Part shown: positions 13,015-20,084 of the stretch, in pieces
Layout: each line of letters opens with the position of its first letter
Numbering within the stretch: position 1 is the stretch's first letter
From: Pseudomonas fluorescens
Lineage (GTDB): Bacteria > Pseudomonadota > Gammaproteobacteria > Pseudomonadales > Pseudomonadaceae
Direction: 5' to 3'
NCBI RefSeq assembly: GCF_019212185.1
Contig: NZ_CP078138.1
Coordinates: 5,867,501-5,931,500 of the forward strand
DNA length: 64,000 nucleotides
Translations under genes and position numbers: made by a program
The notes under the pieces: model-generated
Databases searched by the model: none
Told to the model about the DNA's origin: nothing
What the model saw: only the letters and a program-made list of their open reading frames with translations

Positions 13015-14060
13015 GCCTCATTCTCCACTTTGAATACCGCGGTAAACGCGCCCAACTCTTCAAGTTTTTCACGTGCTAGGCCAGTGTGCAGCGCGTCATG
13101 CGCCAGGGCGACGCCTTCTTTGAGGCTGCTTGCATGATCCGCGGCGTAGAGCGCGGCACCCGCATTCAGCACGATCATTTCTGCAGCTTTCTGGCCGTTT
13201 TCGGTCTTGCGGCGCCCCAGCGCATCGCGGATCAGCTCAAGCGAGGCTGCCGGGCTTTCAACCGCCAGACCGTGCAAGCTCTGGCTCTTCATGCCCAGGT
13301 CTTCCGGCTCGACCCAATACTCGGTGATCTGGTCATCCTTCAACTCCGCGACAAAGGTCGGCGCAGCCAGGCTGAATTCATCCAGGCCGTCCTTGGAGTG
13401 CACCACCAGGACGTGTTTGCTACCCAAGCGTTGCAGGACTTCGGCCAATGGTCGGCACAAGGCCTGACTGAACACGCCGACAACCTGATGTTTCACACCG
13501 GCCGGATTCGTAAGCGGGCCGAGCATGTTGAACAGGGTACGCAAGCCCAGGTCACGGCGTGGGCCCGCCGCGTATTTCATCGCACTGTGGTGGGATTGGG
13601 CAAACATGAAACCAATACCAACGTTGTCGATGCAGCGTGCAACTTGTACTGGCGTCAGGTTCAGGTAAATCCCGGCCGCTTCCAGCAAGTCGGCGCTGCC
13701 ACTCTTGCCGGAGACTGCGCGGTTACCATGCTTGGCCACCGTGCAACCGGCTGCGGCGACGACAAATGACGAGGCGGTCGAGACGTTGAAGATGTTCGCG
13801 CCATCGCCGCCGGTGCCGACCACATCGACCACGCCGTTGAGGGTGTTCAACTCGACCTTGTCCGCCAGCTCACGCATGACCGATACGGCGCCGACAATTT
13901 CATCGATGCTCTCGCTCTTCATGCGCATGGCCATCATGAATGCGCCAATCTGCGCGTCCGTGCATTTGCCAGTCATGATTTCGCGCATCACATCGCGCAT
14001 TTCCTCAGTGCTCAGGTCCAGATGGCCGACGATACGGCTCAGGGCAGTCTTGATATCCAT
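13011..14060 (-). CDS. trpD: Anthranilate phosphoribosyltransferase
   Basis: Transfers phosphoribose from PRPP to anthranilate. It has 349 residues, and the signature [17 protein letters not shown] and the [18 protein letters not shown] loop are intact. The gene is separate from trpG, as usual in Pseudomonas, with a 9-nt gap between trpG stop and trpD start. It overlaps trpC by 4 nt. Confidence 0.98.
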
Positions 14061-14069
14061 GGAAAGTCC

Positions 14070-14663
14070 TTAGCGCGTGCCGCCGGTTTGTTTGAGGAAA
14101 TTGGCGAACAGTTCGTGGCCCTGCTCGGTGAGGATCGACTCAGGGTGGAACTGCACCCCTTCAATGTTCAGCGTTTTGTGGCGCAGGCCCATGATTTCGT
14201 CGACCGAGCCATCTTCGAGCTGAGTCCAGGCGGTCAGTTCCAGGCAATCGGGCAGGGTTTCGCGCTTGACGATCAGCGAGTGATAGCGGGTGACGGTCAA
14301 AGGATTGTTCAGTCCCTGGAACACGCCCTTGTCCTCATGAAATACCGGACTAGTCTTACCGTGCATCACTTGCCGGGCTCGCACGACATCGCCACCAAAG
14401 GCTTGTCCGATCGACTGATGTCCCAGGCAAACGCCGAGGATCGGCAGCTTGCCAGCGAAATACTTGATGGCCTCGATCGACACGCCGGCTTCGGTCGGCG
14501 TGCACGGGCCAGGGGACACCACAATGCGCTCGGGCTTGAGGGCTTCGATCTGGGCGATGGTCAGTTCATCGTTGCGCACGACCTTGACCTCGGAGCCTAG
14601 CTCGCCGAGGTATTGCACAACGTTGTAAGTAAAGGAGTCGTAGTTATCAATCATCAGCAACAT
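14070..14663 (-). CDS. trpG: Anthranilate synthase glutamine amidotransferase subunit
   Basis: Component II of anthranilate synthase, supplying ammonia from glutamine to TrpE. It has 197 residues and starts [14 protein letters not shown]. The catalytic cysteine is in LGVCLGHQ and the histidine/glutamate pair is in FHPESI. ATG 14663 is the only start that gives the canonical N-terminus. It is separated from trpE by estA and about 2.4 kb. A tryptophan-rich leader ORF lies 164 nt upstream. Confidence 0.97.
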
Positions 14664-14827
14664 GGGGGCAAACCTCTTGAATTCACTGACTTTCAAAACA
14701 GCCTTCGAATGATTGGCCCGCAGGATTGCAGCGCTCGTTTAGTGGCTGGAACAGCCAACAACAACGGCGGGGCTTACGGGCAAAGAAGGCAAACAGGTAC
14801 AGGTCCGGCCGGGCCGGCAGAGAATAT
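14664..14827 (-). promoter_or_regulatory. trpGDC leader with GC-rich hairpin (probable attenuator region)
   Basis: Between the leader ORF stop and trpG, minus-strand RNA begins with a very GC-rich palindrome (CCGGCC-C-GGCCGG, 14817-14805) placed 10 nt after the leader stop. The trpE leader has a GCCGG/CCGGC hairpin at nearly the same distance. A second short hairpin (TGGCT/AGCCA) follows. No classical long U-run could be found after the first hairpin, so its role as intrinsic terminator is unproved. Tryptophan attenuation of trpE and trpGDC has been reported in P. putida to my knowledge. Confidence 0.6.
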
Positions 14828-14914
14828 TCAGGCGCGCCAACGCCAACGGGCGTGTGCCTTGACGACTTGATCCAAGAGTTTGCTGACGATCAACACGGGG
14901 AAGGTCTCATTCAT
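14828..14914 (-). CDS. Putative tryptophan leader peptide (trpGDC)
   Basis: A 28-codon ORF on the minus strand (ATG 14914, TGA 14830-14828). It begins MNETFPVLIV and ends KAHARWRWRA, with two tryptophan codons (TGG CGT TGG) shortly before the stop. Its last 73 nt align without gaps, at about 75 % identity by eye, to the 3' end of gph, which ends ALARWRWRA just upstream of trpE. Location, tryptophan codons and the following hairpin make it a good leader-peptide candidate. It has no strong ribosome binding site, and its putative promoter places the transcript start only a few nt before the ATG. Confidence 0.7.
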   Translation of the reverse strand: MNETFPVLIVSKLLDQVVKAHARWRWRA

Positions 14915-14924
14915 ACGTTCAGGC

Positions 14925-14953
14925 ACAGTAACTTAGCTGAGCAGAGGGTGCAA
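14925..14953 (-). promoter_or_regulatory. Putative promoter of the trpGDC leader
   Basis: On the minus strand TTGCAC (14953-14948), a 17-nt spacer, then TACTGT (14930-14925). Spacing is ideal but each hexamer matches only about half of the sigma-70 consensus. It is divergent from estA. Confidence 0.4.
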
Positions 14954-15060
14954 TATGGCGTAGCAATAGCGGGAGATGCGGCCTTTAGCCATAGCAGAGG
15001 CGCAAAAGTTTTTGGTACTGTCGTTTTGTTCACTACAACAATAAATAAACGGACTTGATT

Positions 15061-16971
15061 ATGATCAGACAGACGCTGTTTGTACCGCTGGCAGCCAGCC
15101 TTCTCGCGCTGGCCTGCGCCCAGGCGATCGCTGCTCCGACACCTTATTCGAACTTCGTGGTCTTTGGAGACAGCCTCAACGACGCCGGCCAGTTTACTGA
15201 CCCGGGCGGTCCCGCAGGTGCCACCCAACGCTTCACCAACCGCGTTGGCCCCACCTACCGCGACGGTGCCGGGGAAGTCCGTTCTTCCAACTCGACACAG
15301 TTGCTGGGGGGGAAGCTGGGGTTTTCCGAAGACCAGACGGCTGCCTCGACCTCAGCCGTACGCGCCAACGAAGGCTTGGCGGACGGCAACAACTGGGCGG
15401 TCGGCGGCTATCGGACCGACCAGATCCTCGAGTCGATCACCACCACATCGGCCACCGGCGAACGTACGCGCGCCGGCTATCTGCCAAGCAACGGCCTGCG
15501 GGCCGACCCGAACGCACTGTATTACCTCTCCGGCGGCGGTAACGACTTTCTCCAAGGACGCATTCTCAACCTCGCCCAGGCTGACGCCGCTGCCGGCCGG
15601 CTGGTCGATAGCGTGCAGACCCTGCAACAGGCCGGTGCCAAATACATCATGGTCTGGCTATTGCCCGATATTGGCTTGACGCCAGCAATCAACGGCAGCC
15701 CGTTGCAAGGCTTCGTCTCCCAACTCAGCACCCAGTTCAACAGCGAACTGGTGCGGCAACTGCAGACCGTCAACGCCGAAGTCATTCCGCTGAACATCCC
15801 GGTGCTGCTCAACGAGGCCTTCGCCAATCCAGCGCAGTTCGGCCTGGCCACCGACCAGAACCTCACTGCCACCTGCTTTAGTGGCAGCGGCTGTACGGAA
15901 AACGCCCGCTACGGCATCAACAGCGCCACGCCCGATCCGACCAAGCTGATCTACAACGACTCGGTGCACCCTACCGAGGCCGGCCAACGACTGATTGCCG
16001 ATTACGCTTACTCGTTGCTGTCGGCACCGTGGGAAGCCTCGCTCCTCCCGGAAATGGCCCATGGCACCCTGCGCGCGCATCAGGATGAACTGCGCAATCA
16101 ATGGCAGGCCGACTGGGAAAACTGGCAAGGCGTCGGCCAATGGCGGGCGATTGTCGCCGGCGGCGGGCAGCACCTGGACTTTGATGGCCAGAACAGCGCC
16201 GTCAGCGGCGATGGCAGCGGCTATAACCTGAATATCGGCACCAGCTACCGCGTCAATGACGCCTGGCGTGTAGGTGTCGCGGCGGGCTTGTATCACCAGA
16301 CGCTGGAAGCCGGCAGCAACGATTCGGACTACAAGCTCAATACCTACATGGGCACCGCCTTCGCCCAGTACCAGCAAAATCGCTGGTGGGCCGATGGCGC
16401 CCTGACAGCTGGGCACCTGGATTACGACAGCCTCAAGCGCAAGTTCGACCTGGGCGTCAATGAGCGCGGCGAGAAAGGCGATACCAGCGGCACCGTGTTG
16501 GCGGCCAGTGGCCGGATCGGTTATGACATCGCGCAACAGGCCAGCAGCCCATGGCACCTGTCGCCGTTCGTCAGCGCCGACTTCGCCAAGGTCAAGGTCG
16601 ACGGCTACTCAGAGGATGGCAATGACGCGACCGCGCTGACCTACGACGACCAGACCCGCAACTCGCGCCGCTTGGGCATCGGCCTCCAGGGCAAATACCA
16701 GATCACCGCGCAAACTCAGGTGTATGGCGAGTACGCCCATGAGCGCGAGTACGAGGACGACACTCAAGAGGTGACGATGAACCTCAATACCCTGCCCGAC
16801 AACCGCTACACCCTCGAGGGCTACACCCCACAATCCCATATCAACCGCCTGAACCTGGGCGTCAGCCACAAGTTGACCGCCGACCTGGCGTTGCGCGCCG
16901 GGTACAACATCCGCAAGGATGATGACTTCACTCAACAAGGGGTGAACGTTGGCGTGGTGCTGGACTTCTAA
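15061..16971 (+). CDS. estA: Autotransporter esterase EstA (GDSL family)
   Basis: Outer-membrane esterase of 636 residues. A signal peptide (about residues 1-25) precedes the GDSL block [10 protein letters not shown] with nucleophile Ser38. The GGGND block and the DSVHPTE block with the catalytic Asp and His follow. The C-terminal 260 residues are a typical autotransporter beta-barrel ending in VVLDF, with a terminal phenylalanine. In P. aeruginosa EstA affects rhamnolipid production, motility and biofilm. ATG 15061 is preferred to a TTG two codons upstream. It sits alone between trpG and trpE, which are transcribed the other way. Confidence 0.95.
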
Positions 16972-16982
16972 ATCCGCGAGCG

Positions 16983-17020
16983 AAAAAAACGCTGCCCCCT
17001 CACAGGGACAGCGTTTTTTT
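16983..17020. terminator. Bidirectional terminator between estA and trpE
   Basis: AAAAAAACGCTG (16983-16994) and CAGCGTTTTTTT (17009-17020) form a perfect 12-bp stem with A and T tails. It serves convergent estA and trpE. Confidence 0.92.
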
Positions 17021-17043
17021 GGCGCTGAACCACAGCTACAGAT

Positions 17044-18525
17044 TCAATCCTGCGGCGTTTGCTCGGCCAGGGCGACTGCACGAAACATCGCGCGTCGCTT
17101 GTTCAGAGTCTCTTCCCACTCCAACACCGGCACCGAGTCGGCCACAATGCCGCCACCGGCCTGCACATGCAGCTCGCCGTCCTTGATCACCGCAGTGCGG
17201 ATCGCAATTGCTGTGTCCATGTTGCCGTTCCAGGCGAAGTAACCCACTGCCCCGCCATAGACACCGCGCTTGACCGGCTCCAGCTCGTCAATGATTTCCA
17301 TCGCGCGGATCTTCGGTGCGCCGGACAAGGTGCCCGCCGGCAGAATTGCCCGCAGCGCGTCCATCGCCGTCAGCCCGGCTTTCAGCTGACCGGTGACGTT
17401 GGAAACAATGTGCATGACGTTGGAGTAGCGCTCGATAACCATTTTTTCGGTGAGTTTCACCGAGCCGATTTCCGAGACCCGACCGGTATCGTTGCGCCCC
17501 AGGTCAATCAGCATCAAGTGCTCAGCAATTTCCTTGTCATCCGACAACAGGTCTTCTTCCAGCGCCCGGTCCGCCTCTTCGTTGGCGCCCCGTGGACGCG
17601 TCCCGGCAATCGGGCGCACCGTGATCAGGTTGTCTTCGACCCGCACCAGCACCTCTGGCGAACTGCCCACCACATGGAAGTCGCCAAAATTGAAGAAGTA
17701 CATATACGGCGTCGGGTTGAAGCAACGCAACGCGCGGTACAGATCGATCGGTGCCGCCTTGAAGTCGATGGACATCCGTTGCGACGGCACGACCTGCATG
17801 CAGTCGCCCGCCAGGATGTACTCCTTGATGGTGTCGACGGCGCGCTCGTAGTCGGCCTGGGTGAAGCTGGAACGGAATACCGGATCGGCGGCCTGCTGCT
17901 TGCTGAAATCCAGGCCACGGCGCGGTGTGATCGGCTGGCGCAGTTGTTCGAGCAGTTGCTCGAGACGCGCCTGGCCTTGTTCAAACGCGTTGTCCTGCGC
18001 CGGATCGGCCAAGACGATGGCGTGCATCTTGCCGGCCAGGTTGTCGAACACCACCACGGCGTCCGAGACCATCAACAGAATGTCCGGCACGCCCAATGGA
18101 TCAGGGTTCGGACATTTGCCCAGGCGTTTCTCTACGTAGCGTACGCAGTCGTAGCCGAAGTAGCCCACCAGGCCGCCGTTGAAACGCGGCAGGCCGGCGA
18201 TGGTCGGCACGTTGTAGCGCGCTTTGAAGTCTTCGACAAAGCTCAGCGGGTCTTCGACATCGTGGCTTTCGACCTCGACGCCATCCACCGTCACGCTGAC
18301 GTGATGGTCATGCACCCGCAGCACGGTGCGGCATGGCAGGCCAATGATCGAATAGCGGCCCCACTTTTCGCCGCCCTGCACCGACTCCAGCAGATAGGAG
18401 TTGGGCTGGTCAGCCAGTTTCAGGTAGATCGACAGCGGCGTGTCGAAGTCGGCAAGGGTTTCGCAGGCCAGCGGGATGCGGTTGTAGCCGGCAGCGGCCA
18501 AACGCAGGAATTCTTCGCGGATCAT
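17044..18525 (-). CDS. trpE: Anthranilate synthase component I
   Basis: Chorismate-utilising enzyme of 493 residues catalysing the first committed step of tryptophan synthesis together with TrpG. The feedback-inhibition segment [15 protein letters not shown] is near residue 45. The catalytic chorismate-binding core carries [18 protein letters not shown] and the C-terminal GGGIVADS block. ATG 18525 is preceded by GAGGCACCTC. gph lies 69 nt upstream on the same strand and probably belongs to the same transcript, so the end of gph and the short spacer act as trpE leader. trpE itself ends at a strong terminator. Confidence 0.98.
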
Positions 18526-18597
18526 GAGGTGCCTCGTGGCATGAGGAGCTAACGGTCAGGTATGCAAACGCGCCGGACAACCGGCAGGATCAAGTCA
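18526..18597 (-). promoter_or_regulatory. trpE leader segment with GCCGG hairpin
   Basis: The minus-strand spacer after the gph stop contains GCCGG-TTGT-CCGGC (18585-18572), 9 nt after the stop and followed by GCGTTTGC. The sequence CGCGCC in the last gph codons is complementary to GGCGCG overlapping the 3' arm of this hairpin, so two exclusive structures are possible. A weak T-run follows. I infer an attenuator fed by translation of the tryptophan-rich gph tail. Confidence 0.55.
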
Positions 18598-19413
18598 GGC
18601 GCGCCAACGCCAGCGGGCCAGGGCCTTGATGACTTTCATCCAGAGTTTGCGAGTGACCACCACGATGGCGTTTCCAGAAGGGGGTTGAACAGCGTCGGGC
18701 AACGTTATCCCAGCGGCTGAATCCAGGCAACCGGGAATTAGCTTGCGCAGATCGTCGATGACCAGCGCCGGCGACTCCTCGGCGATCGGCCGCCCGTGGT
18801 TGTAGCCGTAGCTCAGGGCCACGCACTTGACCCCGGCCGCCTTCGCCGCCAGCACATCGCTACGCGAATCGCCGACAAACAGCGACTGGGAAGCCGGTAC
18901 GTTGGCCATTTTCATCACAAAGAACAACGCCGCCGGATCCGGCTTTTTCTGCGGCAGGGTATCGCCGCCAATGATCCATTTGAAGTAGCGACCGATCTTC
19001 ATCTGATCCAGCAGCGGCGCGACGAAACGCTCCGGTTTGTTGGTGATCAGCGCCATTTCGACGCCCTGCTTGTGCAACCACTTGAGGGTGTCGCGCACGC
19101 CCGGGTAGACCACAGTCAATTCGTGGCCATCGGCGTAAGCCTCCATGAAGATTTCCAGCGCGTGCTCGGCCTCGGCATCATCCACGCCGCTGTGGTCGAT
19201 GGCGCCCGCCAACGCACGCCGAACCAGCACCGGCGCACCGTTGCCGACCCACTCGCGCACCGCATCCAGACCGGCACGTTGCCGGCCCAGCTTGAGCAGC
19301 ATGTTATCCACAGCCACTGCCAGATCCGGAACCGAGTCGATCAGCGTGCCATCCAGATCGAACATCACCAGACGCGGCAGTTGCCCCGGGAACAGCTGCT
19401 CAAAGCCACTCAT
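18595..19413 (-). CDS. gph: Phosphoglycolate phosphatase with tryptophan-rich tail
   Basis: HAD-family phosphatase of 272 residues that removes 2-phosphoglycolate. Motif I is [11 protein letters not shown], motif II/III includes [10 protein letters not shown], and motif IV is [16 protein letters not shown]. The HAD core ends near LRKLIPGC, about residue 225. A tail of about 45 residues not seen in E. coli Gph follows and ends [16 protein letters not shown], with three Trp codons. That ending matches the trpGDC leader peptide, so the tail probably serves trp attenuation rather than catalysis. The start ATG overlaps the rpe stop by 4 nt. Confidence 0.95.
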
Positions 19414-20084
19414 GGGCGAGCCAGCGCCAGTTCGGCACGCATTTTTTCAATCACTTCCTGATAGTTCGGGGCGTTGAAGATCGCCGAGCCGGCGACAAAG
19501 GTGTCAGCGCCGGCGGCGGCGATTTCACGGATGTTGTTGACGTTGACCCCGCCGTCGATTTCCAGGCGAATGTCACGCCCCGAGGCATCGATCAGCGCAC
19601 GTGCTTCACGCAGTTTGTCGAGGGTCGCGGGAATGAACTTCTGACCGCCGAAACCCGGGTTCACGCTCATCAGCAAGATCATGTCGACCTTGTCCATCAC
19701 ATACTTGAGCACGTCCAGCGGCGTCGCCGGGTTGAACACCAGGCCAGCCTTGCAGCCGCCTTCACGGATCATCTGCAGGGAGCGATCAACGTGAATGGTG
19801 GCATCCGGGTGGAAGGTGATGTAGGTCGCGCCCGCTTCAATGAAGTCGCCGACAATGCGATCAACCGGGGACACCATCAGGTGTGCGTCGATCGGTGCGG
19901 TCACGCCGTACTTGCGCAATGCCGAGCACACCATCGGGCCGATCGTCAGGTTAGGCACGTAGTGATTGTCCATGACATCGAAGTGCACGATGTCGGCACC
20001 CGCGGCCAGGACGTTGTCTACTTCCTCCCCCAAACGGGCGAAGTCGGCGGAGAGAATCGACGGAGCAATAGCGAAGGGCTGCAT
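19410..20084 (-). CDS. rpe: Ribulose-phosphate 3-epimerase
   Basis: TIM-barrel epimerase of 224 residues in the pentose phosphate pathway, interconverting ribulose-5-P and xylulose-5-P. It begins [44 protein letters not shown] and EIDGGVN are visible. ATG 20084 gives the canonical start; the in-frame extension to 20150 is unlikely. It overlaps gph by 4 nt and probably heads an rpe-gph-trpE transcript. Confidence 0.97.

Follow-up and report, generated by a model that had tools for sequence, protein, structure and literature searches.

Genes and features of the locus

The window, which is the whole stretch of 64,000 nt of Pseudomonas fluorescens DNA that was analysed, carries a trp operon in two parts. 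The minus strand holds gph first, followed by trpE and, beyond a gene of the plus strand, by trpG; two further frames after trpG were taken for trpD and trpC. The plus-strand gene that separates trpE from trpG encodes, by Pfam, a GDSL lipase-autotransporter, and among 52 split loci that were compared there were 44 in which the longest frame of the gap was a relative of it, always in antiparallel orientation. A short frame rich in tryptophan codons stands upstream of trpG, and a similar one in front of trpE forms the end of gph (Table 1).

Table 1. Position of genes and leader elements in the window
Feature	Position	Strand	Remarks
trpG	14070..14663	-	GATase, PF00117, E 5e-64
trpG start region TTGCTGATGATTGA	14647..14660	-	partner of 14893..14880
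GTTTGC after trpG H1	14789..14794	-	complementary to GCAAAC 14883..14878 in the leader
H1 of trpG leader (CCGGC ccg GCCGG)	14805..14817	-	10 nt after stop, without U-run
trpG leader ORF, likelier GTG start, 22 codons	14828..14896	-	(M)LIVSKLLDQVVKAHARWRWRA-stop
trpG leader codons 2-6 (TTGATCGTCAGCAA)	14880..14893	-	14-nt complementarity to first codons after trpG ATG
Putative ribosome-binding site GAGA	14905..14908	-	8 nt upstream of GTG
trpG-unit promoter, -10 TACTGT (predicted)	14925..14930	-	17-nt spacer
trpG-unit promoter, -35 TTGCAC (predicted)	14948..14953	-	motif TTGMNH-N16-18-TAHDRT
GDSL lipase-autotransporter gene	15055..16971	+	Pfam; opposite strand, between trpE and trpG
trpE	17044..18525	-	PF00425 and PF04715
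P1, 3' strand GTTTGC	18564..18569	-	long-range helix
H1 of trpE leader (GCCGG ttgt CCGGC)	18572..18585	-	9 nt after stop; 8 nt with flanking U-G pair
trpE leader, GTG start, 22 codons	18595..18663	-	in frame with gph, forms gph end
gph	18595..19413	-	Pfam HAD: PF13419 residues 16-199, PF13242 to residue 225
P1, 5' strand GCAAAC, in trpE leader	18645..18650	-	pairs with GTTTGC 18569..18564
Possible trpE promoter, -10 TAACGT	18702..18707	-	inside gph, by eye
Possible trpE promoter, -35 TTGCCT	18725..18730	-	inside gph, by eye

Two related leaders in one genome

The sequence-only reading of this DNA had described a 28-codon minus-strand ORF upstream of trpG, an ungapped 73-nt match with about 55 identities between this ORF and the end of gph, a common ARWRWRA-stop ending and a GCCGG-type hairpin about 10 nt past each stop. 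All of these were recovered: the ATG frame is present (14914..14828) and reads MNETFPVLIVSKLLDQVVKAHARWRWRA-stop, the last 73 nt of the trpG leader and of gph are identical at 55 positions, both frames end in ARWRWRA-stop, and a GC hairpin (H1) begins 9-10 nt after each stop. When the leader region was used as a blastn query against its own genome, it found itself and the end of gph (56 nt, 86%, E 8e-10), and further copies were absent at E<=0.001. The pattern CGNTGGCGNTGGCGNNNNTGA occurred twice in the window and never in 100 shuffles of it; genome-wide it occurred four times, two of which are these leaders.

The shared origin proposed for the two leaders was also supported. Leader and hairpin together were more alike than shuffles in 45 of 45 genome pairs, and in a tree of the leaders (69 columns) the trpG copies lay on one side of a single branch that parts them from the trpE copies, with weak support (44). 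The promoter regions of the trpE and trpG units were no more alike than expected by chance (1/46 at p<=0.05 against shuffles), and the copy is therefore established for the leader and its hairpin only.

Start codon and promoters of the leaders

The ATG at 14914, from which the sequence-only reading had started its 28 codons, is probably not the start of the trpG leader, and the GTG at 14896, which leaves 22 codons, is likelier. By pattern, this ATG was present in 33 of 64 trpG leader rows, and the other rows had ATA (7), AGA (2), ACA, GGA or a shifted GAA (2) at its position or had lost the context (18). Codon -22 of the trpG leader was GTG in 47 of 50 distinct leaders and TTG in one more, and a ribosome-site-like 4-mer was found in 50/50. 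These comparisons make it more likely that the trpG leader starts at the conserved GTG, served by the GAGA ribosome site. At trpE, codon -22 was GTG in 57 of 67 distinct leaders (39/44 of the gph-fused ones), and 54 of the 67 had a ribosome-site-like 4-mer. No Val codon besides GTG was used at codon -22 of the gph-fused leaders, and codon -20, when it was Val, was GTC, GTT or GTA and never GTG. Because codon -21 was GTG nearly as constantly as codon -22 (47/67; 33/44 of the gph-fused), the argument for the start codon is weaker at trpE and suggestive only.

The predicted trpG promoter (TTGCAC-N17-TACTGT) ends 28 nt upstream of the leader GTG, and the usual promoter spacing would put the ATG at 14914 no more than about 10 nt away from where the transcript begins. 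Of 61 distinct trpG leaders, 55 had the motif TTGMNH-N16-18-TAHDRT just upstream of the GTG. The best script match upstream of trpE was TTGCCT-N17-TAACGT in 28 of 93 sequences, TTGATT-N17-TAGTGT in 6 and TTGCCT-N17-TACTGT in 3, and the trpG promoter pattern fitted just 13 of the 93. A scan with a stricter consensus returned no promoter before the trpG leader and none before the trpE leader.

Leader presence and operon state in Pseudomonadaceae

TrpG was found in 292 of 298 genomes of the family, and 80 loci were picked by hand among the matches listed; 26 genomes from other genera, 2 from a DNA search for the QWWRFQ leader described below and 33 named loci (L033-L065) were added. The 142 records, less 6 duplicates, left 136 distinct Pseudomonadaceae loci. 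A further 47 named loci were used as outgroups, and those with trpE in view were read. Loci with a trpE-trpG gap under 300 nt were called joined, and 12 of the 136 loci with trpE out of view were excluded from the split and joined counts; nine of these 12 had an RWRW leader, two had the QWWRFQ type and one was cut off.

The Trp codons named by the sequence-only reading are conserved: a WRWR leader preceded trpE in all 98 loci whose sequence included the start of this gene, as well as in 24 of 25 further trpE loci. Of the 65 split loci, 62 had an RWRW-type leader at trpG (61 found by script and L215, with ARWRWHA, by hand), and none of the 59 joined loci had one. The expected presence of the ORF in relatives thus held for these 62 loci and failed in three split and all 59 joined ones, and on the sequences compared this pattern of presence and absence by operon state is the informative result. 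The main scan of the joined loci covered the gap only; a wider scan, run on 46 of the 59 over 320 nt upstream of trpG and including the end of trpE, found two trpE-overlapping frames in all, neither of them leader-like, and L244 has a similar frame. The leader sets used for H1, P1, start codons, pairing, leader similarity and the leader tree were chosen by WRWR, so that the Trp counts in them (67/67 and 50/50) are true by construction and carry no information.

The three split exceptions differ from each other. L053 has another Trp-rich frame (MTCNVTTFFPQWWRFQ) before trpG; L222 has, by our own reading, a same-strand coding frame in the trpE-trpG gap; and in L223 neither trpG nor trpE was found to have a leader of the RWRW type. 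The Microbulbifer loci L098 and L108 likewise have a same-strand frame between the two genes, and their leader is at trpE only. Beyond Pseudomonadaceae, the gap of four split loci (L097, L099, L101 and L104) holds an opposite-strand frame, and neither gene has such a leader there; therefore, the rule that ties the leader to the split is shown for Pseudomonadaceae only. In the P. aeruginosa genus, G107 (gap 27) is without a trpG leader, and G154 (gap 447) and four loci with gaps of 16.7-19.2 kb have one.

On a tree built from TrpE, TrpG and Gph of 124 loci (quick trees with SH-aLRT only), well supported branches required at least 18 changes of the split state. Leader and split were concordant in 17 of 18 independent pairs and never opposite when L053 was scored as having a leader, and in 17 of 17 pairs when five long-branch rows were left out and L053 was scored as lacking it (sign test p about 1.5e-5). 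The order of genes is usually the sole basis for inferring that operons have split or joined; in this one family, a regulatory sensor co-varies with the operon state in at least 17 independent comparisons. The switching of Pseudomonas between the split and the joined state is thus a natural experiment on how regulation follows gene order, and since the sensor co-varies with this state, one can ask directly whether selection keeps regulation or co-transcription.

The trpE leader and the tail of gph

The gph frame was open into the trpE leader in 71 of 98 loci and not open in the other 27. The HAD match of Gph stops near residue 225, and the tail past it carries the trpE leader. Among 59 gph-fused sequences, amino-acid conservation was 0.68-0.72 for codons -40 to -21 and 0.95-1.0 for the codons after them, and constancy of codon choice was 0.93-0.94 across all of the last 40 gph codons vs 0.57-0.80 further upstream, as would be expected under a regulatory constraint on the DNA. 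WRWR-type leaders at trpE also occur outside the family, in Marinobacter, Microbulbifer and some other relatives.

The direction implied in the sequence-only reading, by which the trpG leader is a copy of the gph tail, is not supported by these data. With 27 of the 98 loci unfused and similar leaders at trpE outside the family, gph probably ran into a leader that was already there, and the trpE leader is probably older than its fusion with gph. The leader shows how a coding gene can end up terminating in a regulatory peptide.

Probable duplication and rejoining

The trpG copies have a signature of their own: codon -8 was His in 41 of 50 trpG leaders vs Leu in 63 of 67 trpE leaders. The counts of changes do not tell gain of the leader from its loss. 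As far as the leader sequences allow, a single duplication and later losses, possibly accompanied by interspecies transfer, is likely a better fit than repeated copying.

Remnants of a split-type region were sought by alignment in nine joined loci, those whose gaps reach at least 60 nt. In L034, L118, L124 and L128, 71-80 nt (82-90% identical) aligned with regions of split type up to the trpG start, and in L036, L190 and L146 the alignment up to the trpG start covered 31, 22 and 45 nt, respectively. All seven alignments were above 100 of 100 shuffles, so 7/9 of these loci retain remnants of a split-type region at trpG; the alignment of L054 was not above shuffles, and that of L144 was weak and away from the trpG start. 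Rejoining by deletion is thus visible in part, namely for those joined loci in which remnants were found.

Hairpin and helix after the leaders

H1 exceeded dinucleotide shuffles (p<=0.05) in 87 of the 88 distinct sequences at trpE and in all 61 at trpG. Its stem is GC-rich with 5-6 pairs (81/88 at trpE, 59/61 at trpG) and starts 9-12 nt past the stop codon (82/88 and 56/61). Pairing was kept while both sides of the stem differed between lineages, with variants such as GCCGG/CCGGC, GCCGC/GCGGC, GCCTGCG/CGCAGGC, GTTGT/ACAAC and TCTGGC/GCCAGA. The scripts for H1 and P1 choose the best stem and the stem lists thus lean to structure, for which reason the shuffle test is the fair one. RNAalifold on a MAFFT alignment did not recover H1 of the trpE set, in which the loop length varies. 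When the stop codon occupies the A site, the ribosome extends roughly 10 nt beyond that codon, and since H1 begins at 9-12 nt, a terminating ribosome would abut the hairpin.

At least 5 T among the 8 nt right after H1 were found in just 2 of 88 trpE and 2 of 61 trpG sequences, and at least 4 T in 8 followed H1 in 55/88 and 27/61. No hairpin with a U-run, as in an intrinsic terminator, was found before the first gene; a search for terminator-like sites gave none in 14600..15100 and two in 18450..18950, neither of which lies after the leader. Judged by its sequence, H1 is not a textbook intrinsic terminator. The 40 nt past H1 are 37% C and 17% G at trpG and 35% and 23% at trpE (raw composition, without a control). 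A search of Rfam with 14000..19500 of the window returned two unrelated sub-threshold matches at E<=1 and no relevant family, trp leaders included, and nine loci gave no match at the gathering score.

The long-range helix P1 was the best helix in 54 of 69 trpE cases by hand count, which is moderate support. A compensatory pair (GCAAGC/GCTTGC) was seen in L176 and L183, together with several G-U cases elsewhere. Swapping P1 partners between clades costs little (15.2 vs 14.6; shuffled 12.7), and the support is therefore mainly conservation with little covariation. A P1-like pairing over the trpG set was at shuffle level (own 12.0, shuffled 11.7). Two other candidates were rejected. Single folds had suggested that the segment following H1 pairs with the one preceding trpG, but this helix was at shuffle level (5/59 at p<=0.05); base pairing between the post-H1 tail and the gene starts scored lower than shuffles.

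The distance from the leader stop to trpE in six genomes of the P. aeruginosa genus was 116, 123, 213 and 213 nt in four and 75 and 71 nt in two; from this variable spacing, we argue that leader and hairpin are self-contained and that the distance to trpE matters little. Four of these six genomes (L201, L203, L204 and L206) have extra sequence between the trpE leader hairpin and the trpE start. GCGGGTA occurs twice, about 13 nt apart by eye, between leader and trpG in L046, L048, L184 and L186.

Proposed control and its alternatives

Taken together, the comparisons make it probable that each half of the trp operon has a Trp attenuator of its own, of which the trpE copy would be the older and the trpG copy would follow the split. 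Its parts would be a promoter, a 22-codon leader ending Arg-Trp-Arg-Trp-Arg-Ala-stop and a hairpin about 9-12 nt past the stop. The older trpE copy, read in this lineage as the tail of gph, was probably copied once before trpG when the operon broke, and the new copy would be kept where trpG needs its own transcription and gone where trpE and trpG are joined. With charged tRNA-Trp present, the ribosome would reach the stop and depart, H1 (and P1 in the trpE copy) would fold, and transcription would stop short of the structural gene; when Trp is scarce, the ribosome would stall at the two Trp codons, the folding would change and transcription would continue. The stop itself is probably a pause or a Rho-assisted termination, which we prefer to an intrinsic terminator because the U-run is missing. 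The C-rich, G-poor 40 nt past H1 and the premature 3' ends of P. aeruginosa trpGDC cited below are in line with this preference. TrpR and TRAP were each found in none of 12 genomes (the own genome, 8 of the genus and 3 of the order), in searches that included positive controls; passages of PMC4656820 ascribe trp repression in P. putida to TrpR.

A reading that goes further, and is less likely than not, is a Trp attenuator without an intrinsic terminator, in which the hairpin at the edge of the terminating ribosome would set the choice between pausing or Rho action and read-through, the whole being a portable module that is present where a transcription unit needs it, is lost on operon fusion and can be replaced by an unrelated Trp leader of the QWWRFQ type. 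A classical attenuator like trpL of E. coli, in which an intrinsic terminator, formed by H1 or by another hairpin, competes with an antiterminator, would account for the short leader, the two Trp codons, the GC hairpin, the long-range P1 of the trpE copy and the many sequences with at least 4 T in 8 after H1, but the near lack of stretches with at least 5 T, of terminator-like sites in place and of a relevant Rfam match makes it unlikely. Still less likely is translational attenuation at trpG, by which leader codons 2-6 mask the trpG start and ribosomes queued behind a Trp-stalled one set it free. The pairing ranks high at this locus (1 of 203 windows, and 2 of 399 by RNAduplex); the trpG start was the best of 151-481 windows for the 5' end of the leader in 19 of 44 distinct loci with 0/65 and 0/62 in trpE controls, and RNAduplex placed it in the top 2% in 24 of 48 with controls of 0/64 and 0/70. 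However, the pairing is limited to some clades, being weak or ordinary in L048, L051, L056, L158 and L177, and has no counterpart in the trpE copy; moreover, partners swapped between clades score nearly as high (24.75 vs 23.3), so that the signal may come from two conserved coding stretches. In the reading without an intrinsic terminator, the textbook combination of hairpin and U-run does not account for how the conserved attenuator would stop transcription.

With regard to origin, the similarity of the leaders could be coincidental, or the tail could be a functional part of Gph without a regulatory role, for which the single frame shared with gph in most loci might speak. We regard this as very improbable in view of the HAD match that ends before the tail, the codon choice that stays constant where the amino acids vary, the loci in which the leader is closed in the gph frame and the free-standing copy that tracks the operon split. 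It is somewhat unlikely that the trpG leader arose by many separate duplications or spread by horizontal transfer, rather than by a single duplication with repeated losses; the supported branches of the protein tree force many changes between split and joined, which by number may be gains as well as losses, but the His at codon -8 and the position of the trpG copies on one side of the leader tree count against repeated de novo copying, though not against transfer.

Relation to known systems

Olekhnovich and Gussin (2001, J Bacteriol 183:3256) reportedly described attenuation for both trpE and trpGDC of P. putida, and both the genes and the proposed control are alike here. The family-wide lockstep, the GTG start, the comparison of H1 and the capture by gph come from the present analysis. 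Essar, Eberly and Crawford (1990, J Bacteriol 172:867) are said to have noted that trp genes differ in position among fluorescent Pseudomonas, and that the 5' untranslated regions of trpE and trpGDC are similar in P. putida and P. aeruginosa, with an opposite-strand ORF between the genes. That study reportedly treated two species only and assigned no function, whereas the comparison here is family-wide. What is new is the lockstep of leader and operon split together with the anatomy of the leaders; attenuation itself is earlier knowledge.

The trpL attenuator of E. coli controls anthranilate synthase through a short leader, which carries two Trp codons towards its end, and a hairpin that follows this leader. 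The leaders described here share the short length, the two near-end Trp codons, the following hairpin and the anthranilate synthase target. Unlike trpL, they have no U-run and no Rfam match, their Trp codons are spaced (W-R-W), one of them is fused to the upstream gene and two copies are found per genome.

Passages of PMC8297930 report premature 3' ends of P. aeruginosa trpGDC that adjoin a possible GTG uORF and that exceed the threshold only in azithromycin-treated biofilms. This uORF probably corresponds to the trpG leader described here, GTG start included; those passages give no peptide, hairpin or link to tryptophan. A literature search, with most subscription papers outside its reach, found no account of the lockstep, the gph capture or the hairpin.

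A different tryptophan-rich leader before trpG

A Trp-rich frame ending in QWWRFQ-stop was observed before trpG in L053 (6665-6715), L061 (near 950), L197 and L198, in which the RWRWRA leader is missing. These loci belong to P. fulva and to genomes of two other genus codes (g5, g15). The exact pattern was found elsewhere in none of 59 genomes of the genus, and the pattern with one mismatch in none of 369 genomes of the class; a DNA search found the leader in 2 of 198 genomes of the family. The QWWRFQ leader looks like one attenuator swapped for another. In L053 and L061, a CGCTTCC/GGAAGCG hairpin lies across the stop codon of the QWWRFQ frame.
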